The notes under the pieces: generated by a model
Database searches by the model: none
The model's input: only the letters and a program-made list of their open reading frames with translations
What the model was told of the DNA's origin: nothing
Part shown: piece by piece, positions 6,450 through 46,503 of the stretch
Layout: each line of letters begins with the position of its first letter
Numbering within the stretch: the first letter of the stretch is position 1
IMG/VR virus record: IMGVR_UViG_3300012926_000041
Location: 1 to 47,333 of that record
DNA: 47,333 nucleotides
Direction: 5' to 3' (one strand)
DNA from: a virus
Program-made: the position numbers and the translations under genes

Positions 6450-6745
6450 TAGTTCAAATCGAAGTTAAATGACCCATCAGAGTTATTAATCTGTACAACT
6501 TCTCTAACAATCTCCGAAACCATCTCGCCGTATTTTTTGGATTGTTCGCTGATCTTTCGGATGTTCTTTGAGTCCAGAACAGGCTTCCCATTTACAATCT
6601 TCATTGGATTCGAGATTAGGACTCCAGACAGCGTTGCTAGGATCTGAAGCGCCCTTTCAGGACTCAGGTCTTGCTTCTTGAAATAATTGGTGATGGACTG
6701 AACATGAGGATGATTTTCAAGCCTGTCCTCTTCTGAGATACTCAC
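6449..6745 (-). CDS. Small hypothetical protein between recA-like and sbcD-like genes
   Basis: 98 aa, helical and acidic, with no cysteines. It overlaps the RecA-like stop by four bases and the SbcD-like start by one, so all three genes are probably one translational unit. The segment VLDSKNIRKISEQSKKYGEM looks like an amphipathic helix. No family recognised. Position suggests an accessory role in recombination, but nothing in the sequence proves this. Confidence 0.6.
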   Translation of the reverse strand: MSISEEDRLENHPHVQSITNYFKKQDLSPERALQILATLSGVLISNPMKIVNGKPVLDSKNIRKISEQSKKYGEMVSEIVREVVQINNSDGSFNFDLN

Positions 6746-7749
6746 AGCAGGTCCTCCAGCAACTCCGGACGCTTGTCAACAATGATCTTCAAGTTCTTTC
6801 GACGGAATCTTATCTTCCCGATCTTTAGAAATCCTGGCTTGCCGCCCGATACGATCCGTCCAGACTCTTCAAGGACTTCGGCCAGCCCTGCCCACTCGTC
6901 AAATCCTCTTTTCCAAATGATTCTCAGTGGCGCTTTCCTGAACGGCTCCGCGCATTTGTTCTTCTTGACGAAGGCATTGCAGATAACACCAATTGGACGC
7001 TGGCCTTCAACATCAATTCTCCCGCCACGGTTGAGTTGAAGACGTAGACTGGCATGAAACTTGATTGCACGCCCACCTGGGGTTGTTGTCTTCTCGCCAA
7101 ACATAACCCCGATTTTGTCACGGACTTGATTGACTCCAATATAGACTGCGTTATACTTTGAGATAACTGCTGCACAATGTCGCATGAGTCGGGACATTGC
7201 CCTGGCACGTGCGGCCATTTCTGCTTCCTTCGGAACGAGCATTTTTGCTTTCTTGTCATACTCCCATTCCCCCGCTGAGCACGTGGCAGCAATTGAATCA
7301 TGAATGAACAAGATCTTCGCTTCCTTGTCTGCCTTTGTAAGGACATTCAAAAGCAAGAGCAGCTCTTTTTCAAGCTCCTCGATGGTATCGGGACGACGGT
7401 AGATCAGTTCCTCAATATTCACGCCTACCCTGCGCATGAATTTCCTTGGAGCAGTCGCCTCCGTGTCGAAGACGACAACAACCCCGCCTTGCTCCTGCCA
7501 AGCCTTCGCAATGGTCCACGCCAGAAGGGACTTCCCCGTAGACTCATCTCCGAAGACTTCAATGATGCGCCCCAAAGGGATTCCGCCGCCAAACATCAAG
7601 TCCAACGCATGAATCCCAGTTCGAACCCATTTGATGGAAGGAGGTTGTCCAAGTGACCCGATGATTTTCCGGATCTTATCGCTCAGCTTGCTCTCAACCC
7701 CGGCCAGCCTTGGAAAGCGTTTCTTTTTCTTTCTTTTCATTTTCATCAC
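6742..7749 (-). CDS. recA: RecA/UvsX-like recombinase
   Basis: 335 aa if the GTG at 7749 is used; the ATG at 7746 directly follows and may be the true start. Walker A GDESTGKS at 67-74, Walker B-like ILFIHDS at 146-152, and the RecA signature TTTPGGRAIKFHAS at about 221-234. The short basic N-terminus (KMKRKKKKR) is unusual. It promotes strand exchange in recombination-dependent replication and sits with SSB, UvsY-like, SbcC and SbcD genes. A 14-bp perfect hairpin lies just upstream. Confidence 0.93.
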   Translation of the reverse strand: MMKMKRKKKKRFPRLAGVESKLSDKIRKIIGSLGQPPSIKWVRTGIHALDLMFGGGIPLGRIIEVFGDESTGKSLLAWTIAKAWQEQGGVVVVFDTEATAPRKFMRRVGVNIEELIYRRPDTIEELEKELLLLLNVLTKADKEAKILFIHDSIAATCSAGEWEYDKKAKMLVPKEAEMAARARAMSRLMRHCAAVISKYNAVYIGVNQVRDKIGVMFGEKTTTPGGRAIKFHASLRLQLNRGGRIDVEGQRPIGVICNAFVKKNKCAEPFRKAPLRIIWKRGFDEWAGLAEVLEESGRIVSGGKPGFLKIGKIRFRRKNLKIIVDKRPELLEDLL

Positions 7750-7789: not shown

Positions 7790-7812
7790 TGATTGGAGGA
7801 TGGTTTTCAGTT

Positions 7813-9192
7813 CTACTTCTTCTTGCCTTTCATCTTCCGGAGACGATCAAGGGCATTTTTGACATCGCCCTTCGAGGACTTCTTGTCGTCCTCATCATCG
7901 TCATCCTCTTCGTCTTCGTCGTCCTCATCATCGTCGTCATCCTTGGACTTGGACTTCTTCTTGGACTTCTTTTCGTCTTCGTCGTCCTCATCCTCATCAT
8001 CGTCGTCGTCTTCTTCCTCCTCCTCCTCGTCGTCATCATCGTCCTTCTTGGACTTCTTCTTGGACTTCTTGGACTTTTTGTCGTCCTCGTCATCCTCGTC
8101 GTCATCCTCATCGTCGTCTTCATCCTCGTCGTCCTCATCGTCCTTTGACTTGGACTTCTTGGATTTGTCCTTCTTGGACTTCTTCTTCTTTACGCTGTCT
8201 TCGTCTTCGTCGTCTTCCTTGTCATCATCTCCGTCATCATCGTCATCATCGTCGTCATCATCATCGTCGTCTTTTTCATCATCGTCATCGTCGTCCTCAT
8301 CCTCATCGTCATCTTTGGACTTGGATTTCTTGGACTTCTTTGACTTTTTGCTCTTTGAAGAAGACTCATCATCGTCGTCATCCTTGTCATCGTCTTCCTC
8401 ATCATCCTCATCATCTTCTTCGTCTTCATCGTCGTCCTCGTCTTCATCATCATCCTCCTTCTTGGATTTCTTGGACTTGTCTTTCTTGGACTTTTTCTTC
8501 TTTTTGCTCTCTCCTTCGTCCTCGTCATCGTCCTCCTCATCATCGTCGTCATCACCGGAGTCTGAGGCACCGCCCTCGATCATCTCGATGATGTCCTCAG
8601 GCTCCGGGTACTCCACAAGCTCGTCAAGATCACTCGCCTTTTTCATGATTCTCTCCACTTTCAAAACCTGACTCGACTCTTTCGCCGTCCGTACTGCATA
8701 CTTGGTATCAATTCCTTCCCCAGTCTTCTCGATGATGATGTCGTAGCCCTTCTGGGGATCTGATATGTCGCCCCACTCATCGTCCGCAAAGTACGACAGG
8801 ATCTGTTCATAGATCTGAGGGCCTGAAGCAAACACCATCGGGACGTTGTCCCCGGCCTTCCGGTCAAGGATGTTGTAGAAATAACGCTTCCTTGCCTTGA
8901 ACTTCTTGGCCAGCTCGATGTCGCCCGGATCCTTTGACTTGAACAGGGTGTTGACCATGTCGCAAGCGGGACATTCCTTACCAACATCCTTTGGGCAAGC
9001 AATGGAGCTGTCCCCGATGTTGTAGTGGTAGGAAGCCTCTTTGCAGAACGAATCCTGATCCCCCTTCGGAGGAAGAATCCGGATACGATTCTTTTCGTGT
9101 TCAGGCTTCCACCAGTTGCGGCCACGGCTGTCCTTCTTCTTCTGGACATCCTGCATCCGCCGCTTCATCTTCTTTAGATTGACGCTACCCAT
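7813..9192 (-). CDS. T4 gp32-like single-stranded DNA-binding protein with giant acidic/lysine tail
   Basis: 459 aa. The N-terminal 200 residues carry the gp32-like core: a basic start, WWKPEHEKNRIRILPP, then a zinc site built from H56, C66, C74 and C77. From about residue 209 to 448 the chain is nearly only Asp/Glu runs alternating with Lys/Ser blocks such as KSKKSKK, ending in a short basic helix-like segment. Acidic C-tails are normal in SSBs for recruiting partners, but usually a few dozen residues. The alternating charge blocks are unusual and may drive condensate formation (inference). It neighbours the UvsY-like and RecA-like genes. Confidence 0.82.
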   Translation of the reverse strand: MGSVNLKKMKRRMQDVQKKKDSRGRNWWKPEHEKNRIRILPPKGDQDSFCKEASYHYNIGDSSIACPKDVGKECPACDMVNTLFKSKDPGDIELAKKFKARKRYFYNILDRKAGDNVPMVFASGPQIYEQILSYFADDEWGDISDPQKGYDIIIEKTGEGIDTKYAVRTAKESSQVLKVERIMKKASDLDELVEYPEPEDIIEMIEGGASDSGDDDDDEEDDDEDEGESKKKKKSKKDKSKKSKKEDDDEDEDDDEDEEDDEDDEEDDDKDDDDDESSSKSKKSKKSKKSKSKDDDEDEDDDDDDEKDDDDDDDDDDDDDGDDDKEDDEDEDSVKKKKSKKDKSKKSKSKDDEDDEDEDDDEDDDEDDEDDKKSKKSKKKSKKDDDDDEEEEEEDDDDDEDEDDEDEKKSKKKSKSKDDDDDEDDEDEEDDDDEDDKKSSKGDVKNALDRLRKMKGKKK

Positions 9193-9220
9193 GATTCCTC
9201 CGAAAACAAGATCCGTTCAG

Positions 9221-9679
9221 TTACTTCTTTCCCTTGCGGATACTCAATTCAGTGTCATACTGAGCCCTCCTATTTGCGCCAATTGAAATGAGACAGTCCT
9301 TCTTCTGAGCAGATGCATCTCGCGCTGCAGCAGCAATCTCGTACTGCTCCTTTGCATCCATGAGCTGATTGACCATTGCCAGCCTAGTTGTATTGGAAAT
9401 GATCATCTGTTTAATCCTGCCTTCAGTCATCTTCTCTTCGGGCTCCTTCTTTTTCTTGGCATCCCGAATGGCAGAATCAAGGTTGGCCTCCAGCTCCTCG
9501 AGCTGGTACTCAATGCGCTCAACCTTGGCCTTTGCCATGCCTGCAATCCTGGCATACCGCCCATAAGACCCCGGCTGATCACAAAGAAGCTGATCAAGAT
9601 TTGCTTCGTCGATTTTCAGGTCATCAAAATCAAGCGTAAATTTCCGTTTCTCATCAATCTCGATCTTGATTTTAGCCAT
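9221..9679 (-). CDS. Possible UvsY-like recombination mediator
   Basis: 152 aa, almost fully helical. The pattern resembles T4 UvsY in size and order: a Tyr/Arg-rich helix (GSYGRYARIAGMAKAKVER), an acidic helical linker, then a helix bundle ending near IGANRRAQYDTEL. I could not align it rigorously. It lies between the gp32-like SSB and the polymerase C-half, where a mediator loading RecA on SSB-coated DNA would fit. A generic helical phage protein is the alternative. Confidence 0.4.
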   Translation of the reverse strand: MAKIKIEIDEKRKFTLDFDDLKIDEANLDQLLCDQPGSYGRYARIAGMAKAKVERIEYQLEELEANLDSAIRDAKKKKEPEEKMTEGRIKQMIISNTTRLAMVNQLMDAKEQYEIAAAARDASAQKKDCLISIGANRRAQYDTELSIRKGKK

Positions 9680-9866
9680 TGCTGATCTTCCTCAGAGTTA
9701 GATTCTTAACGTACCCAAATGCCCGTTTGAACTCGTGACAGTTCCTACAATTCCTACAATGCCCAAGATACTTTTTCCGGTCTTCCTTCCTGGTTAGATG
9801 GCACTGACGAACACAAAGACATTCGCAGTGAACTGTTCTTGGCCATTGACGAAAGTAGATTGTCAC
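9672..9866 (-). CDS. Small cysteine-rich protein
   Basis: 64 aa from a GTG that overlaps the TGA of the polymerase/UDG gene; it ends inside the start of the UvsY-like gene. Cysteines are arranged as HCECLCVRQCH and HCRNCRNCHEF, which can hold one or two zinc ions. The rest is basic. No family recognised. The double overlap with its neighbours supports a real coding region despite its size. Confidence 0.5.
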   Translation of the reverse strand: MTIYFRQWPRTVHCECLCVRQCHLTRKEDRKKYLGHCRNCRNCHEFKRAFGYVKNLTLRKISNG

Positions 9867-11239
9867 AGGAAATTCTGAATCGTCTCAGAGAAGTTTTTCA
9901 GTGCTTTTCGGAGGATTGGGAGATTTGCGTTTCGCTCGTAGAGGACGCTGGCAGGGTGGATACAGTACGTCACCCAGGCTTCCGCCCGGTTATTCCACTC
10001 TGTCTTCCCGCTCCACTCCGTGATGCCCTTATTGACCTTCCTAAAGTAATATAAGGCGGTATTCCCGGATGCTAAGATGAATTTCGGTTTGAATCTTCTT
10101 ATGGCCTCAGTTGCCCACGGGCACTTGGAGACATAGGTGATGTTAGGCAATTTATTATTTGGAGGACGGCAAGAGACGGAATTTGCGACAATAACGTCAC
10201 TTCGACTGATGCCAACTCGCTCAAGCTCTTGAAAGAGTAGCTTACCTGACTTCCCCACAAATCCTCTACCCTCCAAGTCCTCTTGCTCTCCAGGTGCTTC
10301 ACCAAGCACCATGACATTGATCTTCCCGATACTTGGAGGAACTGGAGCCTTACAGCCTTGGTGCAACGGGCACAAGGTACAAGCTTGTACTTTTTTCTTC
10401 CACTTCGCTTCATTGAAGCCATCCAGATCCAAGCCTCCAACAATTGGTATCTTGATTTTCCCCGGCTTGCCCGCTGCGATCTTGGACATCAGCTGAAAGT
10501 CCTCGATCATGACATTTTGTTTACGTGCAAACGGAACGTTCACCTTGAAGATAGCAACTTCGCCTTTGATATTTTCAATCGTCTCTTTCTTCCGTTTGTA
10601 AAGATCAGGCTTATAGATTCCCATCGTGAAGGTGGAACCATCGTCCAAGTTGCCATAGATGCCCCCTAGGGCATCTGCAGTCCCGGCCTTCCCGGTTCCG
10701 GCTTGTTTTGCCCGTTCCTTATAACCAAACTTCACGGATGTTGCCTGAGCGACAATGTTCCGCAGCTCCATATCTTTACAGCTATGGTCAATGTCTTTGA
10801 TCTTTTGGATCGGGATGGCATTCATGATCAGCTTACAAAGTCTACGGTATTCTCCGAAGATGTCGCTGCTGATCTTGAAGTTTAGAGATTCCTGCTGATC
10901 CGTTAGAACATCGTCCAGCTTCATCTCCCAGTCTTGCTCGATGTTCTTTTCTTTTTCCTTAATGATCTCAAGGATCTTCTTTGTTCCGAGAAGAGGATAC
11001 AGTTCATCAAAATGCATCTTCCAGAGCTTTGTATTGACTTCTCCAAGCAGCAGGTCAAAGCAACCACTGTTGATCAGCATCCGGACAACTCGGACATTGA
11101 CTTTGCGCCGATCTACTCGCTCAATGAACTGCTCTAGGCTCTTGAACTCGCCGCCGCATTTTTCTCGAGCTTCAAGGATTGCTCGTTGAGCAGTTTCGCC
11201 GCACATCTTGACCTGAGACAGACCAGCTCTTAATTTCAA
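9863..11239 (-). CDS. DNA polymerase III alpha C-terminal half fused to family-4 uracil-DNA glycosylase
   Basis: 458 aa from a TTG with GAGG upstream; an in-frame TAA lies five codons before. Residues 1-110 continue DnaE where the upstream ORF stops: helix-hairpin-helix (LSQVKMCGETAQRAILEARE, then a VDRRKVNVRVV segment). Residues about 180-275 look like the DnaE OB fold. From about 280 on is a family-4/5 UDG: Fe-S cysteines in CTLC, SCRPP and KCPW, the GEAPGEQED motif near 312-320, GRGFVG, and the late IHPASVLY motif. So the polymerase's DNA-binding end and a uracil-removing enzyme are one chain. A sigma-like gene separates it from the catalytic half. Confidence 0.85.
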   Translation of the reverse strand: MKLRAGLSQVKMCGETAQRAILEAREKCGGEFKSLEQFIERVDRRKVNVRVVRMLINSGCFDLLLGEVNTKLWKMHFDELYPLLGTKKILEIIKEKEKNIEQDWEMKLDDVLTDQQESLNFKISSDIFGEYRRLCKLIMNAIPIQKIKDIDHSCKDMELRNIVAQATSVKFGYKERAKQAGTGKAGTADALGGIYGNLDDGSTFTMGIYKPDLYKRKKETIENIKGEVAIFKVNVPFARKQNVMIEDFQLMSKIAAGKPGKIKIPIVGGLDLDGFNEAKWKKKVQACTLCPLHQGCKAPVPPSIGKINVMVLGEAPGEQEDLEGRGFVGKSGKLLFQELERVGISRSDVIVANSVSCRPPNNKLPNITYVSKCPWATEAIRRFKPKFILASGNTALYYFRKVNKGITEWSGKTEWNNRAEAWVTYCIHPASVLYERNANLPILRKALKNFSETIQNFL

Positions 11240-11246
11240 TGGATCC

Positions 11247-11849
11247 TCACTTTAGAACATCAGCAGTTGCCCTGCTGTTCCCAAACATCTTTTCCCTTAT
11301 CGTTCCTCTTGCCCGGTAAGCAAGCGCCCTGATCCTATTGGCAGTCCCACCGTACAGTGCAGCAATCTCTTCGTAAGGCTTCCCAAACATATAGTGTTGA
11401 ACGAAGGCCATTCTCTGGCCATACGTTAGCGTTTCAAGAACTTCAGCAAATTTATCTTTGAACTCATCATAAATGATTTGTTCAAGCCCTTCTCTCCCGT
11501 TTGCCAAAGACTCAAGCCGCTTAAAGACATCTCGCTGGCTTGAAGTATTCCGCTTTGTATCTCTATAATGATGTCGAAAGACATTTAAGAGGATTGAATA
11601 CGCCCAAGTCCTAGGATTTCTTGGTTTGAATTGGTTGTGGTAATGGAACGCCCTTGAAATTGCCTCATCAGTTATCTCCGTCGCAATAGACTCATTGTGA
11701 GTCCATCTGTAGGCCGTCCTTATGTACTTTGACCGATACTGAAAGTAGTCGTGCTCACTCGGAGACAGTCCAGCCGTCTCCGCTACGGTTGATATCCGGC
11801 GGTACAGCTTTGATGCCCATTCGTTTAGCTTCTTTAAGCGCAATGTCAA
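11247..11849 (-). CDS. ECF-like sigma-70 factor inserted between the two polymerase halves
   Basis: The ORF shows both sigma parts: region 2 (YRSKYIRTAYRWTHNE, TDEAISRAFHYHN, then a WAYSILLNVFRHHYRD helix) and region 4 (LETLTYGQRMAFVQHYMFGK, then PYEEIAALYGGTANRI as the helix-turn-helix). This is the layout of a small ECF sigma factor. The start is unclear: TTG at 11849 has AAGGA upstream, an in-frame CTG at 11768 would avoid most overlap with the polymerase, and ATGs exist near 11873-11894. Its stop TGA is eight bases before the UDG-fusion start. It could direct host RNA polymerase to phage promoters. Confidence 0.72.
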   Translation of the reverse strand: MTLRLKKLNEWASKLYRRISTVAETAGLSPSEHDYFQYRSKYIRTAYRWTHNESIATEITDEAISRAFHYHNQFKPRNPRTWAYSILLNVFRHHYRDTKRNTSSQRDVFKRLESLANGREGLEQIIYDEFKDKFAEVLETLTYGQRMAFVQHYMFGKPYEEIAALYGGTANRIRALAYRARGTIREKMFGNSRATADVLK

Positions 11850-14283
11850 TCTTTCCTTCGGCAGACGCAGCATCATCTCCATCGACAGATCCATAATTTA
11901 AGAATGCCGTGAAAAACTCAAGCGGATACTTGATCTTCAGCCAGATGGTGAGGTAACTTAGGATTGCATATTCAACTGCGTGACTCCTGTTGAACGCATA
12001 CACTCCGAAAAACTTTAGATTCTCAAAGAATTCCTCTGCCTCGTCATACTTCATCGTTCCCTTCTTGACACATCCCTTTGCGTACATCTTTTTGTACTCG
12101 CGCCACTTGTCCGTTCCTTCAGACTTTGAGATCACCTTCCTGACTTGATCCGTCGTCTTCCAAGGGATTCCGGCCATGTTGAATAGGAGGAACATAATCT
12201 GTTCCTGATAGATGATCTGGCCACAGGTTGATTCGGTAATCCCTCGATGAATGTCATTGTAATACTTGACCTTCTTTCGACCCAGCTTGATCTCCTGGTA
12301 CTCCTGAGTGATCCCGGCCTTCAAGCATCCCGGTCGCCATAGGGCAGAAGCATCTGCGAGCGTTTCAAAGTCAGATACATTCAAGTCCTTACAGTATTTC
12401 TGTAGGCCCTTAGAGCCAATCTGAAAGCCGCACACCGTGTTCCCGGCTGCGATCTCCTTGTAGACTTCTTCCTTATGAAGATCAATCTTATAGTAGTCAA
12501 TGTCTCTGCCATGCTTCTCTCGGATCAGCCGCTTGGCCTCACTGAGGACCGAGAGTGTTGACAGGCCAAGCACGTCAAGCTTCATCAGCCCCATCTGTTC
12601 AAGGTCTTCCTTATCCCAGTTGACGGTGAGTGTCCCCCTTCGGTTCACAAGATGGCAGTTCCCAGAGTACCTCAGGTCATTTTTGCTAACGACAAATCCT
12701 GCTGCATGAATGCCACAGGTCTTGATCTGTCCTTCAATTTTCGAAGCGTACTTAATGACATGAGGATACTTCTTATAGAAGCGTTTTGCCTCTTCAAAGA
12801 TCTCGACCGTATCCATGATGCTGAAAGAGGCTCGAGCATCCATCTCAGGCCGGATCAGAATGCATTTTGACATCGCATCTGCTTCTTGCCTTGGAACCTC
12901 AAAGAGCCTCGAGACGTCCCGGACAGCTTGCTTCCCGCGCATCATTCCAAAGGTTGAGACATGAGCAACGTTCCATTCTCCGTACTTCTCTTTAAGGTAT
13001 TTCTCAATGAGATGCCGCTTGCGATCTTCAAAGTCAATGTCAATGTCGGGCAGGTCTACTCGCCCTTCAGAGATGAATCGTTCGAAGATGAGATTGTGCT
13101 CGATGGGATCAACCTCAGTAATATGCAAAAGATAAGACACAAGGCTGCCACCAACAGACCCGCGACCGTGTCCCACAAGGATGTCGTTAGATTTAGCCCA
13201 GTTGATAACATCAGCAACAAGAAGCATATAACGTACAAAGCCACCATTGACCATCGCTTCGAGTTCATACGCTGCCCTCTCTCGATACTTTCTTGACGTC
13301 AATCCTCTTTTTTCAAGTTCCTGCTGGCACTTCTCGATCAAGTAAACCGTTTCGTCAATTCCTTTTTCGAGGACTCGAGGGAGTTCAACTGGAATTTTGT
13401 TCAGCTTGAACTGACACTTCTCCCCGATCTCCATCGTGTTTAGGATTGATTCTCTGGCCACTTCCCGATCAATCCCCATTAGCTTCAGAGACTCATACAT
13501 CTCCTGAGCATCCCGCATGTAGTTCAGATGTGTATCAAATTTCCAACGCTTCGGATTGTTCCAGGTCATTCCTCGCTGACCAATTCCAAGAATGACATCG
13601 TGGACTTTGTGGTCTTTCTCGCACAAGAAATGAATGTCATTTGTTGCAATCAGCTTGATGCCAAGCTCCTCAGCCGCAACAAGAGCTTGAGCGTTGATAT
13701 TCGTCTGATGGTCAAGATCGTGCAGCGGCATGATCTCGGCATAAAGATCTTGCTTGAAGGCTTCGTAATATTTTCCAAGGAGATCAATCCCGTTCTCCGC
13801 ATTCCAGAAGGGACTCGAGGCACATCCCGTCTGAATGATGACATCTCCGGCCCAGTCGTGCTCTAAGGGATATTCCATTGGCAGGAAGGCTCTCGAGGAC
13901 CAGCCTTTCTTGGAAATGCCATTAATGTTTGCATATCCTAGACCAACTAGCAGCTTCTTCAGGCCGCGCTCATTCTTGGCATGAGCAATGAGGTGAAGAT
14001 TTTTTTGCTTTAAATTGAAATCATCCTTCTTATCCCAGTGCTCCAGCATGTAAAGTTCAACTCCAAAGATTGGCTTGATCTTGTATTCCTTTTTCTCCTT
14101 GTCATAGCAAGCATTATTGAACTTGACGATTCCGTCCATGCTCCCATGATTTGTACTCGCAATATACCGATGCCCCTTTTCAATTGCGCCCTTAACAAGC
14201 TCCTTTGTCTTGACGGCCCCATCCAGGAGACTGAACTCATCGTGGACGTGCAAATTACAGAAATCTTTGTTCTTCAGCGTCAT
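11755..14283 (-). CDS. dnaE: DNA polymerase III alpha (DnaE), N-terminal catalytic half
   Basis: 842 aa. PHP domain first (HVHDEF at 12-17, TNHGSM, HLIAHAKN, TNDIHF), then the PolIII palm and fingers. GRGSVGGS and the two metal aspartates in LPDIDIDF lie near 410, and the third aspartate in MKLDVLGLSTL near 566. The protein stops at WTVSE, right after the family motif PPDIN, exactly where the helix-hairpin-helix part should follow. That part is found in the ORF at 9863-11239. All catalytic residues are present, so the half is probably active when joined by its partner. PHP has Asn for the usual Asp in T-D-H. Confidence 0.93.
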   Translation of the reverse strand: MTLKNKDFCNLHVHDEFSLLDGAVKTKELVKGAIEKGHRYIASTNHGSMDGIVKFNNACYDKEKKEYKIKPIFGVELYMLEHWDKKDDFNLKQKNLHLIAHAKNERGLKKLLVGLGYANINGISKKGWSSRAFLPMEYPLEHDWAGDVIIQTGCASSPFWNAENGIDLLGKYYEAFKQDLYAEIMPLHDLDHQTNINAQALVAAEELGIKLIATNDIHFLCEKDHKVHDVILGIGQRGMTWNNPKRWKFDTHLNYMRDAQEMYESLKLMGIDREVARESILNTMEIGEKCQFKLNKIPVELPRVLEKGIDETVYLIEKCQQELEKRGLTSRKYRERAAYELEAMVNGGFVRYMLLVADVINWAKSNDILVGHGRGSVGGSLVSYLLHITEVDPIEHNLIFERFISEGRVDLPDIDIDFEDRKRHLIEKYLKEKYGEWNVAHVSTFGMMRGKQAVRDVSRLFEVPRQEADAMSKCILIRPEMDARASFSIMDTVEIFEEAKRFYKKYPHVIKYASKIEGQIKTCGIHAAGFVVSKNDLRYSGNCHLVNRRGTLTVNWDKEDLEQMGLMKLDVLGLSTLSVLSEAKRLIREKHGRDIDYYKIDLHKEEVYKEIAAGNTVCGFQIGSKGLQKYCKDLNVSDFETLADASALWRPGCLKAGITQEYQEIKLGRKKVKYYNDIHRGITESTCGQIIYQEQIMFLLFNMAGIPWKTTDQVRKVISKSEGTDKWREYKKMYAKGCVKKGTMKYDEAEEFFENLKFFGVYAFNRSHAVEYAILSYLTIWLKIKYPLEFFTAFLNYGSVDGDDAASAEGKIDIALKEAKRMGIKAVPPDINRSGDGWTVSE

Positions 14284-15410: not shown

Positions 15411-16253
15411 TCACTTCATCACCTCATCTTCCGTTTTCTGTCCACGAGAATGTACAGACTCTTTCCACTGCTGGACCCGTTTCCATTCTGGATGCTTTTC
15501 AGAAAGTCCTAACTTGACATAAAGTGGGCAGCAATGATCAGTATTGCTCTTCCCTTCATACTTTGCCTCCTTGAGCTGCTGTTCGTTCTCAGGGATCAGG
15601 ATACAAGGCCCAAAGCGACAAGGCTCTCCGATTGCATCTGCAATGACCTTATCTAGCTTCAGCTCAACTTCTCTTTGCATCAGTTGACAAAGATATTGGA
15701 ATTCTCCCTGAGTCTTCAGACACATTCGTTTGTTTATTAGATCAATGAACGATTTCAAGTTACACGATGCTGTAATTGTGCTATAGACATTAAGAGGAAG
15801 AATCCCCCTTGCATCCTGAACAGTCTCTCCAGAGCCAAGCATTGAATTGTAAGCCTCTTGGATAACCTCCATCGCACTATGGTATGCAGCTTTATCCTTA
15901 ACAGAAGCTGGACAGTGGTAGAATCCTTTATCTGCAAAACTCTCAAGCGGAACAACTCGGAGACTCTGAATTGAAAATGCCCATCCAATTCTACTCCTTG
16001 TCCACTGTTGCTGAAGAGCGCGACTTACATTTTCAGCCTTCCAGACCATTCCAATGTACTCAAGGAAAGGCGATAGGCGGTCTTTCAAGACACCTCGAAA
16101 TGTTTCTTTAAGAGTCTCTCTAGAAACTTCTCGAGTGATCTGGTCAAGATCATCTGCGACAGGCTCTTTCTGGACTCGCTGAGCCCAGTAGATAGTCTCT
16201 AAAATCTTTGGAGTAAAATTTACAAGCGTTGCTCGAGGTTTAAGCATTTGCAT
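15411..16253 (-). CDS. thyX: ThyX-like flavin-dependent thymidylate synthase homologue
   Basis: 280 aa with AAAGGAGAG before the ATG at 16253. The ThyX core is seen as QQQWTRSRIGW (residues 81-91) followed by SIQSLR (94-99), and later ARGILPLNVYSTITASCNLK and INKRMCLKTQGEFQ. Canonical ThyX has RHRX7S; here it reads R86-S-R88, with the S-x-R at 97-99 one place later, so the dUMP/FAD loop is altered. It may make dTMP, or a modified pyrimidine (some phage dUMP-modifying enzymes are synthase relatives). The neighbours (NMAD1, sugar-type enzymes, dUTPase-like) fit pyrimidine metabolism. Confidence 0.75.
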   Translation of the reverse strand: MQMLKPRATLVNFTPKILETIYWAQRVQKEPVADDLDQITREVSRETLKETFRGVLKDRLSPFLEYIGMVWKAENVSRALQQQWTRSRIGWAFSIQSLRVVPLESFADKGFYHCPASVKDKAAYHSAMEVIQEAYNSMLGSGETVQDARGILPLNVYSTITASCNLKSFIDLINKRMCLKTQGEFQYLCQLMQREVELKLDKVIADAIGEPCRFGPCILIPENEQQLKEAKYEGKSNTDHCCPLYVKLGLSEKHPEWKRVQQWKESVHSRGQKTEDEVMK

Positions 16254-18817: not shown

Positions 18818-19263
18818 CGCTTCATCCTCTCAATGATTTTAAGCCGATACCCATAAATAACCTTGGTGTCAAAATAGATATACTTCCAACCCCGCTCGCC
18901 CTTCCAAAGCTCTCCCTCGAGCAGCTTCATGTTGGCCATATAAGGATTCAGTTCAAGGAATTCCTTGCACGATTGCACATGCGTTCCAAGATGGCTGATC
19001 TCCCCTTCCTCGAGTTGATGATGGAAGGAATCTCCGCTGACGTACTGAAGGAACTCAACTTCCATCCCGTTCACGTAACAGTAGGCAAGCTTCAGATTCC
19101 ATTCTGCGGGCTTCCCCTGATAGTGACCCTTTGCACTGTGGTCAAGGTCAACAACAATTTTCTTTGGATCAAGACCAAAGTTCATCGAGAACTGGACAGC
19201 CTTGTCTACTGAATTCTTTGAAGCAAGACAGATCTGATCAAACTTGACCGCGAAGCTTAACAT
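18814..19263 (-). CDS. VOC-superfamily (glyoxalase/epimerase-like) protein
   Basis: 149 aa from the ATG at 19263, preceded by GGAGGAGAAAA and overlapping the upstream stop. KFDQICLASKNSVDKAVQFS is like the first beta-alpha unit of VOC proteins. GMEVEFLQYVSGDSFHH with ISHLGTHV recalls the metal-binding E and H of methylmalonyl-CoA epimerase-type members. These catalyse epimerisation or related metal-assisted enolate chemistry. Fits a small-molecule pathway with SDRs next door. Confidence 0.55.
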   Translation of the reverse strand: MLSFAVKFDQICLASKNSVDKAVQFSMNFGLDPKKIVVDLDHSAKGHYQGKPAEWNLKLAYCYVNGMEVEFLQYVSGDSFHHQLEEGEISHLGTHVQSCKEFLELNPYMANMKLLEGELWKGERGWKYIYFDTKVIYGYRLKIIERMKR

Positions 19264-20216
19264 TTTTCTCCTCCATTTGTAAACCAGTTTAGGTTCCACA
19301 TGATTTCTCTGAACTCCTTGAATCTTGTAATCGGTAGCCCCTCCGTGCTTCCTTGGTTGTACTCCGTCTCACGGAGATAGACATGAATGTTTTTCGAAGC
19401 AATCTTGATGGCATTTACAAGTGTGTCCTCAACGACAAACTTTGCAAAGGAGTAGTCTTTGATGATCCGATCTTCCTTGTTCTCGTCAAACAGAATGGCG
19501 TTGTACGGGAAGCCATACCGCTTCAGCCATCCAATCGTGTCGGCCATGATTCGCCGGTACTTCTTGTAGGGCCGAGCCGTCATCAGAAGAATGTAAAAGT
19601 TGTAATGTCTTAGATAGTTCATGTACTCCAGGGAGCCTTTGATGACATCAAGCCCCTGAGACTCAACGCCTGTCTCGCGGAAAATATGCTTCAGCTCATA
19701 CGCTCTCTCATGCCCAATGTACTTCCCGACATGAGCGTAGAATTCTCCTCCCGTTAGCGGAGGAATTTCTATTCCAGTCTTCTCTTTGATGAATCCAAAG
19801 ATGCCCTTGATGTAGTCTGCGAGGACGCCATCGATGTCAACAACAGCGCATCCTTCATACTTGCTAGGGTCCCATGGATTTGAGAACTCTTGAATATACT
19901 TCTGCTCAACCACTTCTGTTTTCCGTTCCCATTCCTGAAGGAACTCCTCAAGGGTCATGTCCCAGATCAGAGCAATGCCATTCCAATACTTGAAGATATC
20001 TATGATCTCTTCTTTGACATTTTCTCGAATGATCCTGGTGTTCTCTCGACGATGAGTTTTCCAGCTTAGATTTTTTAGTAGCTCCATCAACTCATCTTGA
20101 ACATACAGAACAAAGTCTTTTGTTAAGGCTTCGCGGTCTGCTTGCGTGAGGTGTCCAAGGTGATGGAAGTTGTTATTGAACTGTGCCTGACGTTCCCAAA
20201 TCTCTCTCAAGTCCAC
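19257..20216 (-). CDS. Fusion: all-alpha NTP pyrophosphatase (dUTPase-like) + HAD phosphatase
   Basis: 319 aa starting at a GTG with GGGAGAG upstream. Residues 1-110 are helical with YVQDELMELLKNLSWK and NVKEEIIDIFKYWNG, the E-x-x-E and E-E-x-x-D metal sites of dimeric dUTPase/MazG folds. From residue 120 a HAD domain begins: VVDIDGVLAD (D127, D129), LLMTARPY near 211-218, and FDENKEDRI with VEDTLVNA as the later motifs, like deoxynucleotidase relatives. One chain could take a dNTP to dNMP and on to the nucleoside. Confidence 0.7.
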   Translation of the reverse strand: MDLREIWERQAQFNNNFHHLGHLTQADREALTKDFVLYVQDELMELLKNLSWKTHRRENTRIIRENVKEEIIDIFKYWNGIALIWDMTLEEFLQEWERKTEVVEQKYIQEFSNPWDPSKYEGCAVVDIDGVLADYIKGIFGFIKEKTGIEIPPLTGGEFYAHVGKYIGHERAYELKHIFRETGVESQGLDVIKGSLEYMNYLRHYNFYILLMTARPYKKYRRIMADTIGWLKRYGFPYNAILFDENKEDRIIKDYSFAKFVVEDTLVNAIKIASKNIHVYLRETEYNQGSTEGLPITRFKEFREIMWNLNWFTNGGEKC

Positions 20217-23240: not shown

Positions 23241-23747
23241 TCATAGGTATTCTCTCAATAAATCCTCCTTCTTCTTTAGGTACTGATCATTGATCCGGCT
23301 CGAGACTTCGACCAGACGCTTACAACGCTCCCGTCCCAGTCTCCCTGTTAGAGCAGAGAGCTTTGCGCGGAAGAAGTCGAGTGGAAGTAAGGGACTCCCT
23401 GCAAACGAAGCAGGCCCATCCTGCTCTTGGGAAGCTGGCCCAAGCATCGCTTCAAGCCGGGCCACCCTCCGTTCTGCCTTGATGAGCTTCATCCTGAAGA
23501 TATCCTTGATCCTCCGGCGAAGACTCTTGCGGAACAATCGAATCAGGTCAATCCCTCTGGCAGAGGGATATTCTTCCAGAACCCTCCAAAGAATAATAGA
23601 TGCCTCCTGACAGAGATCCTCTGAATCATAGAGGACCGATCTCCAGGCATGACGCTGTGCAACCGATTTGATTAACAGGGACATCATCGCCAGCTGAAGA
23701 TCATAATCAGCCCGATCCCCTAGCCCCGTTCTCTCTCTCGCTTCCAT
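23241..23747 (-). CDS. Sigma-70 region-2-like protein
   Basis: 168 aa. LLIKSVAQRHAWRSVLYDSE, then DLCQEASIILWRVLEEYP and LFRKSLRRRIKDIFRMK match the helices of sigma region 2, including D-L-x-Q-E. After a Pro/Gly linker the C-terminal part is helical but lacks an obvious region 4. It overlaps the upstream gene by 41 nt. Third sigma-like protein of the window; it could be a phage middle or late sigma or a region-2-only regulator. Confidence 0.5.
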   Translation of the reverse strand: MEARERTGLGDRADYDLQLAMMSLLIKSVAQRHAWRSVLYDSEDLCQEASIILWRVLEEYPSARGIDLIRLFRKSLRRRIKDIFRMKLIKAERRVARLEAMLGPASQEQDGPASFAGSPLLPLDFFRAKLSALTGRLGRERCKRLVEVSSRINDQYLKKKEDLLREYL

Positions 23748-27970: not shown

Positions 27971-29401
27971 CTACTTTGCGTTGATGATCTTGAGCATCTT
28001 GGCAAACACAGCGTCCGTGAGTTCCTCGAGCCTCATGACGCTGATGGCCTTGTCTCCCATGAACTTCGGGAGTTTGTCCGTCAGGATGCTGACGCCAATC
28101 ATGATGATGTTGGCCTTCCGCTTGAGCTCATCGGCAAACTTCCCCATCTCCTCGATACCCGAGTTACATTCATTGGCATCGGTGAGGAAGAACATCATGC
28201 GCCGATCCTCCGGACGCGCCAGGAGACGACGAGCACCGTAGGCTGCTGCATCGTGCGGGATATCAGTACCGGCATCGCAGCGATAATTCCCGATCCGGTC
28301 CCTAACACTGACCCAGGGATCATTGAAGCTCTTATACACCATGGCGTAATGGTTATAAGAGAAGTAAGCCCCTCCCTGGTAGGAAAGGACTTCGAACTGG
28401 ATCCCTAGAGAGTTACAAACCTCTCCAAGCGCATAGGCCAGGACTCCTGCGGTCCCATTCTTGGAGAACAGCAGGGGATCTCCTGTTGCGCTGACCCCGC
28501 CATACGTGACCAACGTTCCACGACCGGGGGTTTGACGCATCGAGGATGAATCGTCCAGGATGATGGTGATGGCCGTCTTGATCGTCTTGCGGTCTGCCTT
28601 CTTGGCAAAGATATCATCCTTGCCCGCCGCCACGAGCCGAGCAACCTGGCCCCGGTCGACCAGACCCGATTTCTGCTGACGCTGGCGAGAGACGCGGGCT
28701 TCAGCCTCCATGGCCAACTGAAGCTGACGACGGAGACGGGGAACGATCTCCAGAGCCTTGTTACGGATGGGGATGGCCCGCTCGCCATTAGCCTTCGGCC
28801 TGAAGATCTCGAGGCTACGGGGCATGCCCGATTCCATCGAGTTCACCATCTCATCCCCGATTTTCTCAAGCCAGTCTTCTGATGCGGGCTCTCCAGGGAC
28901 ATCGTTGTCAATGCCGCTATCGGCATAAAGCATGGTTCCGCCAGAAAGCGTGACCCCTACCTTCTTCTTCTGAGGGCCATTGGATCCTGACCTAGACGTC
29001 GGCACGGGCAGTTCCCAGTCCTCATTTTCTTCCGCTGCCTCTTCCCCTTCCATCTTGGCGATGTGTTCGCGCAGTTCCTTTTTCTCTGCCTCCGTCAATT
29101 CAACCTTGATGAACTTGTCATCCTCGCCCGTATTGATGACAATGTCCTTGCCGTCCTCGAGAGCTTTCTTGATCTCCTCTGCGGTACGCTCCGTGATGAG
29201 GACGGCAGCCACGTCAATCTTGTCGAAGATGTCCTTCAGCTTTTCCTGAAGAGGCTCCGAAAGACCTGCCATTGGATTCTCGTTCAGATCTGAATAGGAG
29301 CCCGCATGCTCCTCGCAACCCCACTCGCCGCATTTCGGGCAGATGCCACGATCCGGCTTGCCATACTCGCCACCGATGATTTCGTCTTCGTTGTGATCCA
29401 T
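27971..29401 (-). CDS. CobT-like VWA-domain protein
   Basis: 476 aa. The first 250 residues are charged and partly disordered, with a CPKCGEWGC zinc-like start. The C-terminal VWA domain begins with the MIDAS motif ILDDSSSM near 281-288; GTDIPHDA and FFLTDANE follow as the later metal-binding loops. The order fits CobT/BchD-type chelatase subunits working with a CobS-like AAA+ ATPase, encoded just upstream (29596). Actual cobalt chelation is not shown: such pairs also remodel or assemble other metal enzymes. Confidence 0.72.
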   Translation of the reverse strand: MDHNEDEIIGGEYGKPDRGICPKCGEWGCEEHAGSYSDLNENPMAGLSEPLQEKLKDIFDKIDVAAVLITERTAEEIKKALEDGKDIVINTGEDDKFIKVELTEAEKKELREHIAKMEGEEAAEENEDWELPVPTSRSGSNGPQKKKVGVTLSGGTMLYADSGIDNDVPGEPASEDWLEKIGDEMVNSMESGMPRSLEIFRPKANGERAIPIRNKALEIVPRLRRQLQLAMEAEARVSRQRQQKSGLVDRGQVARLVAAGKDDIFAKKADRKTIKTAITIILDDSSSMRQTPGRGTLVTYGGVSATGDPLLFSKNGTAGVLAYALGEVCNSLGIQFEVLSYQGGAYFSYNHYAMVYKSFNDPWVSVRDRIGNYRCDAGTDIPHDAAAYGARRLLARPEDRRMMFFLTDANECNSGIEEMGKFADELKRKANIIMIGVSILTDKLPKFMGDKAISVMRLEELTDAVFAKMLKIINAK

Positions 29402-29407
29402 AAAGTC

Positions 29408-29587
29408 CTATCCTTTCGGTTGATTCAGACAAGGTTCACAGTACACATGCCCAGCCAGCTCATTGAGCGGCTCCGTCTTGCTCTTGCAGAGATGGCATTG
29501 ACGCTTCTCTTTCCGGAGTCCTTCCCCGGTACAGAAGCATCTCAGCTTTTCCTGCTCCGTCTTTTTCGGTTTGTAGTTGTATCTCAT
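29408..29587 (-). CDS. Small zinc-ribbon protein between the AAA+ and VWA genes
   Basis: 59 aa from the ATG at 29587, after GGAGATGCC. CFCTGEGL, CHLCKSKTEP and CEPCLNQ provide zinc ligands. It sits inside the CobS/CobT-like pair, so it may be an accessory piece of that complex, but this is position only. Confidence 0.5.
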   Translation of the reverse strand: MRYNYKPKKTEQEKLRCFCTGEGLRKEKRQCHLCKSKTEPLNELAGHVYCEPCLNQPKG

Positions 29588-29595
29588 GGCATCTC

Positions 29596-30759
29596 CTACT
29601 TGGGCCACTTGAGACTGATGATGATCGGATCCACGAGCTTGCGCTCATCCGAGAGAAGCGTGTTGAGATAGATGAGCTCAATCGCTTTCCGACATCCCCA
29701 TTTCATCGCTTTCTGTCCGATGGCGATGATTTGGCGTGTGGAGCAGATCACCGGATTGCTTTCATCCTTGGCTTTCTGGCGGATGGCGCAGGCCATCACC
29801 GTCAGGACGTTCGCAATCTGGCCCTGAATTCCTGCTGCCATGAGAATCTCTTGTTCGTTGGGGGCATAGTCGATGTAGTAGACTCCTCCCTCCCAACGAT
29901 TCAGAAACGCAGCGTTCATGGCCTGAGAGCCCTGATACAAACCGGACTCGTCCAACTTGAAGCTGTTGCCCGTTGCGACGATGGTTAGCATTCCACCAGG
30001 GATCTTGATTTCCTCGCCATCAATCTCGATGGACCGGGATCTGTCTCGAGTATTCATCTCGAGTACTCGATGGAACTTGAAAAGGACTTCGGGCTTGCCC
30101 GCCTGAACCTCATCTGCGAGATACAGGACTCTTTCGCCCTTTGCGGCGAGACGACAGGCCCGAGCCAGTTCTCCATCTTTGAACTCCGTGATGCTGACGC
30201 CATCCTCCACGGTCACGATGGTTGCGCCGATCATGTTGTCCACGACCGTTTCGCCATCAAAGTTCTGCCGGATGAAGGTTGCCTTGATAGCCTTGGAAAG
30301 AGCTTGGGCCGTTACCGTCTTCCCCGATCCCGTAGGGCCATGGAAGAAAAGGTTGCCGCCCATCTCGCAAGCATCCTGCATCCAAGCGAAGTCTGGGACA
30401 GGAATGTAGTCCCCCATCTTGCTTGCTGGAGCAGGAGTAAAGGTAGGGGCTGCGGGAGCCGATGTCCATCCTCCCGCAGGGGCAGCCATCGTTGCGGCCT
30501 TGACCAGCGGACTTGCGCTGCTGGTCATCTTCATCTCCCAGAGGCAATCGTCATTCAGAGGATTGCCATGGGCCACAACGCGGACCCCATTCAGCTTATT
30601 GATGGTTCCGGCGATGTTCTGGACTTGGCAAATCGTCTTGCACACGCGATACGATCCAACCAACTCCTTCGAACTACGCTTGCCAGTCTTGAGCGCCTCA
30701 AACATCTTGTGGGCGCCCGACATCACAAAGACATTGACTAGCTCCTCGAGCTTTGCCAT
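29596..30759 (-). CDS. MoxR/CobS-like AAA+ ATPase
   Basis: 387 aa, AAAGGACCACTCC before the ATG. Residues 1-80 are an alpha/beta part, 81-115 an Ala/Pro linker, then the AAA+ domain: Walker A GPTGSGKT (141-148), Walker B VLYLADEVQ (211-219), sensor TIVATGNS, and AAFLNRWEGG with the Arg typical of MoxR/CbbQ/CobS. With the VWA gene downstream this is the standard ATPase-plus-VWA pair. The partner complex and target are unknown. Confidence 0.78.
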   Translation of the reverse strand: MAKLEELVNVFVMSGAHKMFEALKTGKRSSKELVGSYRVCKTICQVQNIAGTINKLNGVRVVAHGNPLNDDCLWEMKMTSSASPLVKAATMAAPAGGWTSAPAAPTFTPAPASKMGDYIPVPDFAWMQDACEMGGNLFFHGPTGSGKTVTAQALSKAIKATFIRQNFDGETVVDNMIGATIVTVEDGVSITEFKDGELARACRLAAKGERVLYLADEVQAGKPEVLFKFHRVLEMNTRDRSRSIEIDGEEIKIPGGMLTIVATGNSFKLDESGLYQGSQAMNAAFLNRWEGGVYYIDYAPNEQEILMAAGIQGQIANVLTVMACAIRQKAKDESNPVICSTRQIIAIGQKAMKWGCRKAIELIYLNTLLSDERKLVDPIIISLKWPK

Positions 30760-39527: not shown

Positions 39528-40457
39528 CTAGGCTCCCCGGAGCCCCATGGCAGTCAATTTCTCTTCCACTGCCTCAGTCATCAGACTTGCCCACTTGTCC
39601 CGGTTAAGCCAGCGCTGCCACATCTCCAATCCGTACTGACCGCGCTGGATCAGCTCTTGATCTGAAGTCTTGTCCAGAAACGCTCGAATCAAGTTGCCCG
39701 CGTCAGGAGCTTGTTCTTCCTTGAAGATCAGACAGCACTTTTCATAATCAATCTTGTTCTCCCAAGGCAACGTGTGGCCCGTACAGAATAGAGCAGGAAC
39801 CCTTCCTGCTGACATCGCTTCAAAGAAGCGATACGGAAAGACCTCCTTGATGGATCGACCGGCCAACGCAATCCGGGATTCCTGAAGAGACTTCTTGTAG
39901 GCTTCCATCCGTTTCTTCGCTTCAGGCGGATTATCACGTTCAAAATAGCCATGGAATTCAACATACTCTGAAAGGTCGCACTTCAAGCCGGTATGTTCAC
40001 GGCAAGAGTCTGCAGATTGCTTCCGGGGCTCATAGTTCCTCCAGCCGTGAAACGAAACATCATACTTGAAGCCTTCTTCAGGAACCGGCGCAAGATGAGC
40101 AAGCGGTTCAACGGGCCATGCCCATGAGATGGTGTTCTTATCAAATTTCTTCATGTACTGCTTGACATTACAGCGAATGAATTGACAGTTCAATCCATAC
40201 ACATGGTCAAAATCAGAGACGTCAAAAAAGACGTGACGCTCCTCTCGGCCTGGCATGTATTTCAGGTTCCTGATTTGAAGGATCTGTTCTGTGGTCCGAT
40301 AGTACATCGTCGCAACTGGAAAGATAAAGACATCGGCCTCATCAGGATTCTCTGTCTTGATGGTTCCGTCCAACCTCAACGTGCCCGAAGGAAGAATCTG
40401 ACAGCCTGGTAGTTCCTGTTTCTCAACTGAATACTCATAAGCTTTTAGCTGGCCCAT
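39528..40457 (-). CDS. Exostosin-like (GT47-type) glycosyltransferase
   Basis: 309 aa. Middle: FHGWRNYEPRKQS, YKKSLQESRIALAGRS, then FPYRFFEAMSAGRVPALFC, closely following exostosin/GT47 domain architecture (a capsular or heparan-type sugar enzyme shape). No signal or membrane segment. Start overlaps the next glycosyltransferase stop by 13 bases. Probably adds a sugar to a surface glycan or to phage particles; substrate unknown. Confidence 0.62.
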   Translation of the reverse strand: MGQLKAYEYSVEKQELPGCQILPSGTLRLDGTIKTENPDEADVFIFPVATMYYRTTEQILQIRNLKYMPGREERHVFFDVSDFDHVYGLNCQFIRCNVKQYMKKFDKNTISWAWPVEPLAHLAPVPEEGFKYDVSFHGWRNYEPRKQSADSCREHTGLKCDLSEYVEFHGYFERDNPPEAKKRMEAYKKSLQESRIALAGRSIKEVFPYRFFEAMSAGRVPALFCTGHTLPWENKIDYEKCCLIFKEEQAPDAGNLIRAFLDKTSDQELIQRGQYGLEMWQRWLNRDKWASLMTEAVEEKLTAMGLRGA

Positions 40458-41320
40458 TGAAGAGTCTCCTTTAGAAGATTTTCGATATGACGATACATAG
40501 CACAGTATTCAAGATAGATCAGCTCAATAGCTTCTGTCTGAAGCGGCCAGCCAGTGTAGTAAAAGCTTCCATCTGGCTTCTTCTGAAATTCGTGAAAGTG
40601 GTAGCAGACCAAGGGATAGGCTCCAGCCTTGAGGATCCCATCCTCTTTCCTGACCGGCCACTGAGAGATATTCCAAGGTCCAGCATTCACTCCGTAGTTC
40701 TCGAGGACCTTACAGCAGCAACGATATCTTGATGGCCAGGCATCAAGGTATTTCTGATCTCCAAACTTTCCGTCCTCCTGCTTGTAGTAGCACCACTCAA
40801 GACAGTCTTCGGCCCAGCGTTGTAGGCATTCCTGGCCCGTCACATTTCGCTTGAATGTAACCCATCCAACATTGAACAGTCCATTCTGCTCAAGGAATTT
40901 CTTTTCCGGGAGCAGTCGATGAGCCGTGATCCCAATCGAGCCTCCAACAAGTTCATCGTGAGCAATCTTAGGGTCATTGAAGAAAAAGAGATCTGCATCC
41001 AGATACGTGATATTTGTCAGGCCATTCTCGTTCATCAGGCCATCGCAGTACTGAGACGCCATGGTCCAACAGAATTCGCGCCAGTCCCGATTACCCTTTG
41101 CCTTGATGATGTCTTCGTTCTCAAAGTCCCGAAGATCGGTGATGACGCAGCCCTTCATCCATCCAAGCTTCTCAAGCTTCTTCAGGATTTCAACCGTCTC
41201 AACATCCATTGCCAGGATGTAGAGCATTGACTGCTCCGTGATGTGTTTCATCAGCGAAGCAAAGAGACAGAGTCCTTTTGCGAGATAGTTCCGGTCAAAT
41301 AGCGTTGCGTAATTTCTCAT
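40445..41320 (-). CDS. GT8-like glycosyltransferase
   Basis: 291 aa. NYLAKGLCLFASLMKH, then LYILAMDVETVEILKK; NITYLDADLFFFND holds the D-x-D of GT-A enzymes, and NVGWVTFKRN and GPWNISQW fit the acceptor side of GT8-like enzymes. A soluble retaining transferase is expected. Start and stop overlap with neighbours in this operon. Confidence 0.65.
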   Translation of the reverse strand: MRNYATLFDRNYLAKGLCLFASLMKHITEQSMLYILAMDVETVEILKKLEKLGWMKGCVITDLRDFENEDIIKAKGNRDWREFCWTMASQYCDGLMNENGLTNITYLDADLFFFNDPKIAHDELVGGSIGITAHRLLPEKKFLEQNGLFNVGWVTFKRNVTGQECLQRWAEDCLEWCYYKQEDGKFGDQKYLDAWPSRYRCCCKVLENYGVNAGPWNISQWPVRKEDGILKAGAYPLVCYHFHEFQKKPDGSFYYTGWPLQTEAIELIYLEYCAMYRHIENLLKETLQWAS

Positions 41321-42018
41321 TTGATCTTCTCACAAAGATACGAGACGTGCGAATAGCCCCCATCATCTGGAAGTGTAAAGATATTCTCCAAGTGAACGAT
41401 CTTGAGACCGGCCATCCTCAGGAGCATGAAGAATTCTGTTTCGCTGAAATGAATCTCGACACACGGGATTCCATAGGCAAGCTTCAGGTAATATGTTGTT
41501 GGCTTGTTGTAGAGAATCGGCTGGCGATGGAAGAGGACATAACGCTTTGAGACTCGGGCAGACTCAAAGACAACTGAACGGTAGTCCTTGATGTGGAGCA
41601 TGCAGCATCCCGAGTGAACAATGTCAAACTGCCCATCGTGGTAGCTGAGACGAGTTGCATCCTCAACATCAAAGTTGACGGTTGGATAAAGATCAGCAGC
41701 AAGAGCCTGAAAGTCCTTACTGAAGTCGCATGCCCGATAATTGTACTTGAAGCCTGCAATCCTCATGATCTTAGAGTAATAGGCTCCGGACGCACCAACA
41801 TCAAGGAAGGTGGTTTCTCGGCTATCTGGACATTGGATCCTGAACAGACATTGAACAAAGGCATCATAGGGCGCAATCTTTGCCCCCTTGGCATAAGCCT
41901 CAAGTTCATTCTTCACAACAGTTTCATATTGAAGCTTCGGGATCTCCTTTGAGAGCCAGCAGTTGCCAGCATCCTCCCAAGCCTTCCTGATCTCTTCAGC
42001 CGATTGTAACTCTTTCAT
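41317..42018 (-). CDS. Class I SAM-dependent methyltransferase
   Basis: 233 aa. TTFLDVGASGAYYSKIM is motif I, YRACDFSKDFQ motif II, FDVEDATRLSYHDGQFDIVH motif III/IV, and LFHRQPILYN the next strand. Lacks a DNA MTase catalytic motif such as DPPY or PC. Sits among sugar genes, so methylation of a sugar or glycan is likely. Overlaps neighbours by four bases. Confidence 0.72.
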   Translation of the reverse strand: MKELQSAEEIRKAWEDAGNCWLSKEIPKLQYETVVKNELEAYAKGAKIAPYDAFVQCLFRIQCPDSRETTFLDVGASGAYYSKIMRIAGFKYNYRACDFSKDFQALAADLYPTVNFDVEDATRLSYHDGQFDIVHSGCCMLHIKDYRSVVFESARVSKRYVLFHRQPILYNKPTTYYLKLAYGIPCVEIHFSETEFFMLLRMAGLKIVHLENIFTLPDDGGYSHVSYLCEKIK

Positions 42019-46466: not shown

Positions 46467-46503
46467 TGTTTTCTCCAAGCTATCATTCTCATCAAAGCTC
46501 TTT

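Follow-up and report, generated by a model that had tools for sequence, protein, structure and literature searches.

The stretch of viral DNA analysed here (IMG/VR record IMGVR_UViG_3300012926_000041; the window, i.e., its entire 47,333 nucleotides) encodes a DnaE-type DNA polymerase III alpha in two genes and not as a single polypeptide. The C subunit of this split polymerase ends with a family-4 uracil-DNA glycosylase (UDG). In the explanation that we favour, with a probability of about 0.6, the two genes provide one C-family (DnaE-type) replicase, the C subunit of which puts the UDG at the replication fork, where it would excise uracil.

The C-subunit gene (9863-11239, minus strand) is an ORF of 458 aa with a TTG start, situated 5 nt downstream of a GAGG ribosome-binding-like site (11248-11245, minus strand) that overlaps the stop codon of a sigma-like ORF. 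Pfam searches and the AlphaFold model divided the product into an (HhH)2 domain, an OB-like/linker region, and the UDG. The (HhH)2 DNA-binding domain of DnaE (residues 3-64, 11048-11233, minus strand) was recognised by PF14579 (HHH_6, E 2.9e-14) and aligned with Pol III alpha structures; in the PDB sequence search, residues 3-89 matched Pol III alpha. The UDG domain occupies residues 276-458 (9866-10414, minus strand), with the PF03167 match covering residues 307-444 (E 4.3e-20, 72.7 bits versus a cut-off of 24.3), and the top PDB matches to the C subunit were family-4 UDGs: 4zbx (7e-25), 1vk2 (1l9g/1vk2, 2e-22), and 1ui0 (5e-21). The model, built on a 49-sequence alignment, reached pLDDT >90 for approximately residues 20-110 and 276-450 and was poor between them; the region aligning between (HhH)2 and the C-terminal domain, where the OB fold of DnaE would lie, stayed at pLDDT <60. 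The UDG part of the model (residues 276-458) superimposed on the Thermus thermophilus UDG 1ui0 with Z 25.6 and rmsd 1.8 Å over 181 aligned residues. The UDG directly follows the template-handling (HhH)2/OB region and occupies the position of the tau-binding C-terminal domain of DnaE, which is absent in the window. The first-pass annotation had correctly described this gene as the C-terminal half of a polymerase, the other half of which is encoded separately (11755-14283). A candidate clamp-binding motif in the segment QQESLNF was dropped, as the segment resembles a conserved DnaE segment of the ETLGLYLTGHP type.

The UDG of the window contains the GEAPG, CRPPNN, and HP motifs and four cysteines. 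All the invariant or near-invariant UDG positions of the 49-sequence alignment were kept, namely C287, C290, E314, N353, C357, C373, H428, and P429. E314 of motif 1 (GEAPG; 10298-10300, minus strand) and N353 (10181-10183, minus strand), the latter presumably the uracil-contacting Asn according to general knowledge of the family, were invariant in the 49 UDGs. The H428-P429 pair of motif 2 (HPAS) lies at 9953-9958, and the span of the four Fe-S cysteines (C287, C290, C357, and C373) at 10121-10381, both on the minus strand. The four cysteines fit the predicted binding of a 4Fe-4S cluster, and the retained residues suggest that the UDG of the window is active in uracil excision. UdgX, a covalent uracil-DNA binder with a KRRIH-type loop and a covalent His as its hallmark, scored well under family 4 in the PDB search with the C subunit; no such loop was present in the C-subunit sequence. 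Hence, the earlier call of a family-4 UDG fusion with GEAPG, RPPNN, HP, and four cysteines was borne out by Pfam, PDB, and alignment, and the alignment revealed no loss of key UDG residues in the window. The C-subunit ORF was kept in two related contigs, L002 and L003, at 74-77% identity, which is far beyond chance, and its dN/dS was ~0.1 in the comparisons that allowed an estimate of dS; in many, dS was saturated.

The N subunit (11755-14283, minus strand, 842 aa) comprises the PHP, palm/thumb, and fingers of DnaE (PF02811, PF07733, and PF17657). It carries the PDIDID and LKLD motifs with the catalytic aspartates, and its alignment with Pol III alpha of Taq and E. coli extends to the residues immediately preceding (HhH)2. 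Between the halves lies a sigma-70/ECF-like ORF (11247-11894, minus strand; PF08281 3.3e-9, PF04542 6.3e-7), which, if started at its first ATG, overlaps the last 140 nt of the N-subunit gene. The first-pass annotation, right about the C-terminal DnaE/UDG part, had overlooked the two-gene split with the sigma-like ORF in between. This ORF showed no detectable kinship to the Rhizobium phage sigma or to the second sigma-like ORF of the window (23241-23747, minus strand), which resembles sigma-70 region 2 at 22.6 bits, under the Pfam cut-off.

The polymerases of L002 and L003 are split at the same point as that of the window (N part 83% identical, C part 77% and 74%, respectively), and the sigma-like ORF is absent from the polymerase junction in both. 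In L002 the halves are joined by an ATGA stop/start overlap, and the junction of L003 has a TAGTG overlap and a separate small ORF that contains Cys/His residues (60 aa, 7813-7995). The three genomes share the site but differ in their junctions; the split is therefore genuine and was inherited, and unrelated genes have been taken up at the junction. That a sequencing frameshift had produced the split was ruled out by the three different junctions in three genomes. An intein or a group I intron between the halves was also ruled out: no intein motifs and no Rfam match were detected across the whole window, and N- and C-intein halves were not found at the break in the junction sequences of the window, L002, and L003.

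The first-pass annotation had linked the fusion to the ThyX and dUTPase-like genes of this phage. The fusion proved not to be specific to these genes of the phage; it is an old and widespread viral DnaE architecture. The search with the N part revealed unsplit orthologues, one 58% identical in DnaE (L089) and four 39-41% identical (L090, L091, L093, and L095), in which DnaE-UDG is a single chain of ~1120-1290 aa. The search with the UDG alignment gave ~40 distinct viral contigs with the complete single-chain DnaE-UDG. In one search of genome contigs, no cellular host or prophage copy was found. L149, apparently frameshifted, was left out of the split count, and L120, broken by an intein, was not counted as a simple split.

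The DnaE and UDG trees were quick trees with few outgroups. In the DnaE tree all C-terminal DnaE-UDG fusions formed one group (SH-aLRT 97), apart from the UDG-less DnaEs of Moorella and Streptomyces phages and of a faecal contig, and apart from L051, a viral contig with another UDG arrangement. The three split members grouped at 100 beside the unsplit L089 and L104, which argues that the split is derived. L092, devoid of UDG, was placed inside the fusion clade and has probably lost the domain. The UDG trees agreed with the DnaE tree for the intact forms, with support for the fusion of 98-99. A single clade of intact and decayed forms was not rejected in the AU test (p 0.86), the constrained tree being better than the free one. 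Inteins typically sit in conserved sites. The one found in the DnaE-UDG polymerase of L158 (1705-6336; also in L159) is inserted inside the UDG exactly at the Fe-S cysteine C357 (HITNVVK/C...VSHN/CWPSKT); inteins were also seen in the DnaE part of L110, L134, and L120, the L120 intein region consisting of two ORFs, either a split intein or a frameshift.

Within the set of 58 DnaE-fused UDGs, HP was kept in 57 (the exception being L003), position 314 was E or Q throughout, the four cysteines were present in all members with data there, and N353 in all with data but two. In L003, 74% identical to the C part of the window, GEAPG is changed to GEAPR and HPAS to PSGI (CIPSG), and the domain is retained. 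The L003 UDG was considered as a decaying pseudogene and this was rejected: unique changes were slightly raised, without reaching significance (Fisher p 0.33 and 0.06), and dN/dS was low. Six contigs (L121, L124, L129, L138, L180, and L185) encode family-4-type UDGs with GQDPG in place of GEAPG in motif 1, which is similar to GQDPY, the motif of family-1 UNG with the catalytic Asp.

Different forms were found in cultured phages. More distant queries detected a UDG-like domain on DnaE of the Rhizobium phages RHph_Y2_11, RHEph10, and B1VFA; it was also present in the Pseudomonas phages nickie, hairong, ZY21, phiK7B1, and Nican01, in the Stenotrophomonas phages ANB28 and BUCTxx99, and in the phage-plasmids, Salmonella SSU5 and its E. 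coli/Klebsiella kin. Where annotated, the fusion of the cultured relatives was labelled simply as DNA polymerase III alpha. The C-terminal domain of the Rhizobium, nickie, and ANB28 polymerases is a UDG according to Pfam, and that of SSU5 matched the UDG HMM built here (2e-12). Three phrogs (phrog_405, phrog_4335, and phrog_13175) span the DnaE C-terminal/UDG region, and we suggest that phrog_4335 and phrog_13175, annotated as of unknown function, be re-annotated as the DnaE C-terminal/UDG-fold region. Catalytic residues were lost in each of the six cultured relatives examined in full, with E changed to D, N353 to A, S, or G, and HP to NP or SP. No Fe-S cysteines were left in the Rhizobium, SSU5-type, and ANB28 forms; nickie and hairong retain three of the four.

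Because L003 and all cultured relatives examined have lost catalytic residues, excision is not the sole role of the domain across the family. It is conceivable, and we put this forward tentatively, that a viral replicase lineage adopted the UDG as a structural, template-gripping domain of DnaE, with excision as an option that most metagenomic lineages retained but that disappeared once in the ancestor of the cultured Rhizobium, Pseudomonas, Stenotrophomonas, and SSU5 phages and again in L003; the lineage of the window would then have moved the UDG onto a separate, exchangeable subunit. The main rival to the favoured reading, which we regard as rather unlikely, takes the UDG mainly for a DNA-binding/processivity module that replaced the tau-binding/C-terminal domain, catalysis being secondary or dispensable. 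The pseudo-UDGs retained in the Rhizobium, Pseudomonas, Stenotrophomonas, and SSU5-type phages and in L003 speak for such a module, as does the location of the UDG at the CTD position, and a precedent exists in vaccinia virus, where D4 with A20 forms the processivity factor (PMC5682278). However, the catalytic site was kept in nearly every sequence of the metagenomic clade of the window, which goes beyond the demands of binding. The retention of catalytic residues over deep divergence in this clade makes excision at or near the fork the best explanation, and the survival of the domain elsewhere without these residues makes a structural or DNA-binding role also probable.

In the favoured reading, the N subunit would supply PHP, palm, and fingers, and the C subunit (HhH)2, the OB-like region, and then the family-4 UDG in place of the tau-binding domain. 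The two subunits would reassemble into one polymerase, with the UDG held beside template and nascent DNA at the fork, where it would bind and excise uracil, either from the template (after cytosine deamination) or from the nascent DNA (after dUTP incorporation), and the abasic gap or the stalled fork would be passed to the products of the neighbouring SSB/UvsX/SbcCD recombination genes. Since the sigma-like ORF sits in the junction, co-translation and stoichiometry of the halves are only presumed. Two points stand against excision: cutting uracil out of the single-stranded template ahead of the fork would do harm unless a repair route existed, and L003 and the six cultured relatives keep the UDG domain without its key residues, so excision is not needed everywhere. 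The first-pass proposal of a tie between uracil handling and the replication fork fits the comparative evidence; the fork as the site of action is what we infer.

The genes downstream of the C subunit offer a plausible route for abasic gaps. They encode a conserved 152-aa protein (9221-9679, minus strand) that is weakly UvsY-like (phrog_1069 of unknown function, 8e-18; phrog_231, UvsY-like, 0.0015) and syntenic in relatives, a single-strand DNA-binding protein (SSB; 7813-9192, minus strand; phrog_1192, 1.1e-29) with a very long acidic tail, and a UvsX/RecA-like recombinase (6742-7749, minus strand; PF00154 1.7e-48, phrog_97); SbcD/SbcC-like proteins are encoded downstream as well. In related contigs, too, the fusion is followed by the genes for SSB, the 152-aa protein, and UvsX, which also lie downstream of UDG-PolA fusions such as L058. 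The SSB tail exceeds 200 residues and is rich in Asp, Glu, Lys, and Ser; an apparent poly-Ser ORF on the opposite strand (7793-8671) is an artefact of composition. CobT- and CobS-like genes (27971-30759, minus strand) were also noted in the window, and the same pair is located just upstream of DnaE-UDG in nickie and the Rhizobium phages.

According to another view, which we consider improbable, the UDG is a read-ahead sensor that, on binding uracil in the template, stalls the polymerase but does not cut. Archaeal family-B polymerases stall at template uracil in this way. The loss of catalytic residues with retention of the domain in some lineages would suit a sensor, and so would the likely placement of the UDG next to the template-binding domains. 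On the other hand, the decayed forms also lack N353 and therefore may not bind uracil, and the UDG of the window looks, from its residues, competent for cutting.

Least credible, and hardly to be expected, is the policing of base identity, with the UDG removing unmodified or wrong pyrimidines from a modified-pyrimidine genome: SPO1, a hydroxymethyluracil phage, also has a UDG domain on its PolA (gp31), one contig carries UDG-PolA near a gene annotated as 'pyrimidine hmase synthase', and ThyX of the window is divergent, but no clear DNA-modification enzyme was recognised among the window ORFs tested, and many fusion contigs gave no evidence of modified pyrimidines. The ThyX call of the first-pass annotation (15411-16253, minus strand) was supported by Pfam (PF02511, 2e-28), with a deviating signature motif, TRSRIGWAFSIQSLR in the window and TRHTLGFSYSIQSLR in L002 instead of the usual RHRxxSxNxxSxR, which possibly points to an altered chemistry. 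The dUTPase-like call was weak (PF08761, 22.5 bits versus a cut-off of 22.9). The ORF at 19257-20216 (minus strand) is a fusion that resembles dUTPase_2/MazG in its N-terminal part and NT5C/polynucleotide kinase in its C-terminal part. At 39528-46562 (minus strand), a gene cluster reminiscent of a surface-sugar pathway encodes glycosyltransferases, methyltransferases, and a DegT/DnrJ aminotransferase.

The closest described system is the DnaEX variant with a UDG domain, which Timinskas et al. 2014 (PMC3919608) presented as an additional polymerase of certain Yersinia pestis and Salmonella strains. One sentence there describes the Yersinia/Salmonella form as DnaE with OB and CTD replaced by UDG (PMC3919608). 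It shares with the window the PHP-Pol3-(HhH)2 core and the replacement of the C-terminal domain by the PF03167 UDG, and it corresponds to the SSU5-type phage-plasmid polymerase; unlike the window, with its two genes and intact UDG, it is one chain (PMC3919608). Judging from the sequence of the SSU5 member, the Yersinia/Salmonella form appears decayed, with Fe-S and catalytic residues lost. The UDG domain on phage PolA is known from PaBG gp205 (PMC7412058) and was also noted in SPO1 gp31 and the Thermus phage phiLo (PDB 9qhs). In these fusions, too, a family-4-like UDG is tethered to a phage polymerase (window versus 9qhs, Z 14.2), but the polymerase belongs to family A, the UDG is N-terminal, and the UDG tree sets them apart. 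L051 encodes a UDG-PHP protein (7960-9534) and a separate DnaE palm/fingers gene (11095-13539); like the window it has a split DnaE with one half bearing UDG4, but its UDG is N-terminal on the PHP half. As it groups with stand-alone UDGs, L051 is likely a second, independent fusion. Cyanobacterial split-intein DnaE is encoded by two genes, as in the window, where, in contrast, no intein is present at the split, the halves have separate starts and stops, and unrelated ORFs lie between them. In vaccinia virus a uracil-DNA glycosylase, D4, is also part of the replicative polymerase and tethers it to DNA, but D4 is a separate polypeptide bridged by A20 to the family B polymerase E9 (PMC5682278). 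The survey of polymerase swapping in Caudoviricetes (PMC11348598) does not mention UDG, and no description of split or catalytically intact DnaE-UDG was found in the open-access literature. What is new is that a two-gene DnaE carries an intact UDG, that the viral family is broad, and that its active forms contrast with decayed ones.

If the favoured reading is true, base-excision chemistry and a bacterial-type replicase share one assembly, which physically and directly links uracil sensing with replication. Poxviruses are the only case in which a comparable link is known in detail; for some PolA phages it has been suggested. The family provides a natural experiment, with matched polymerases whose UDG is intact, freshly broken (L003), or anciently decayed (SSU5, nickie, RHph), and it spans both split and unsplit polymerases; the catalytic and structural roles are therefore separable. 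Altogether, the fusion is a system in which to ask whether uracil is repaired or read by viruses right at the replication fork.
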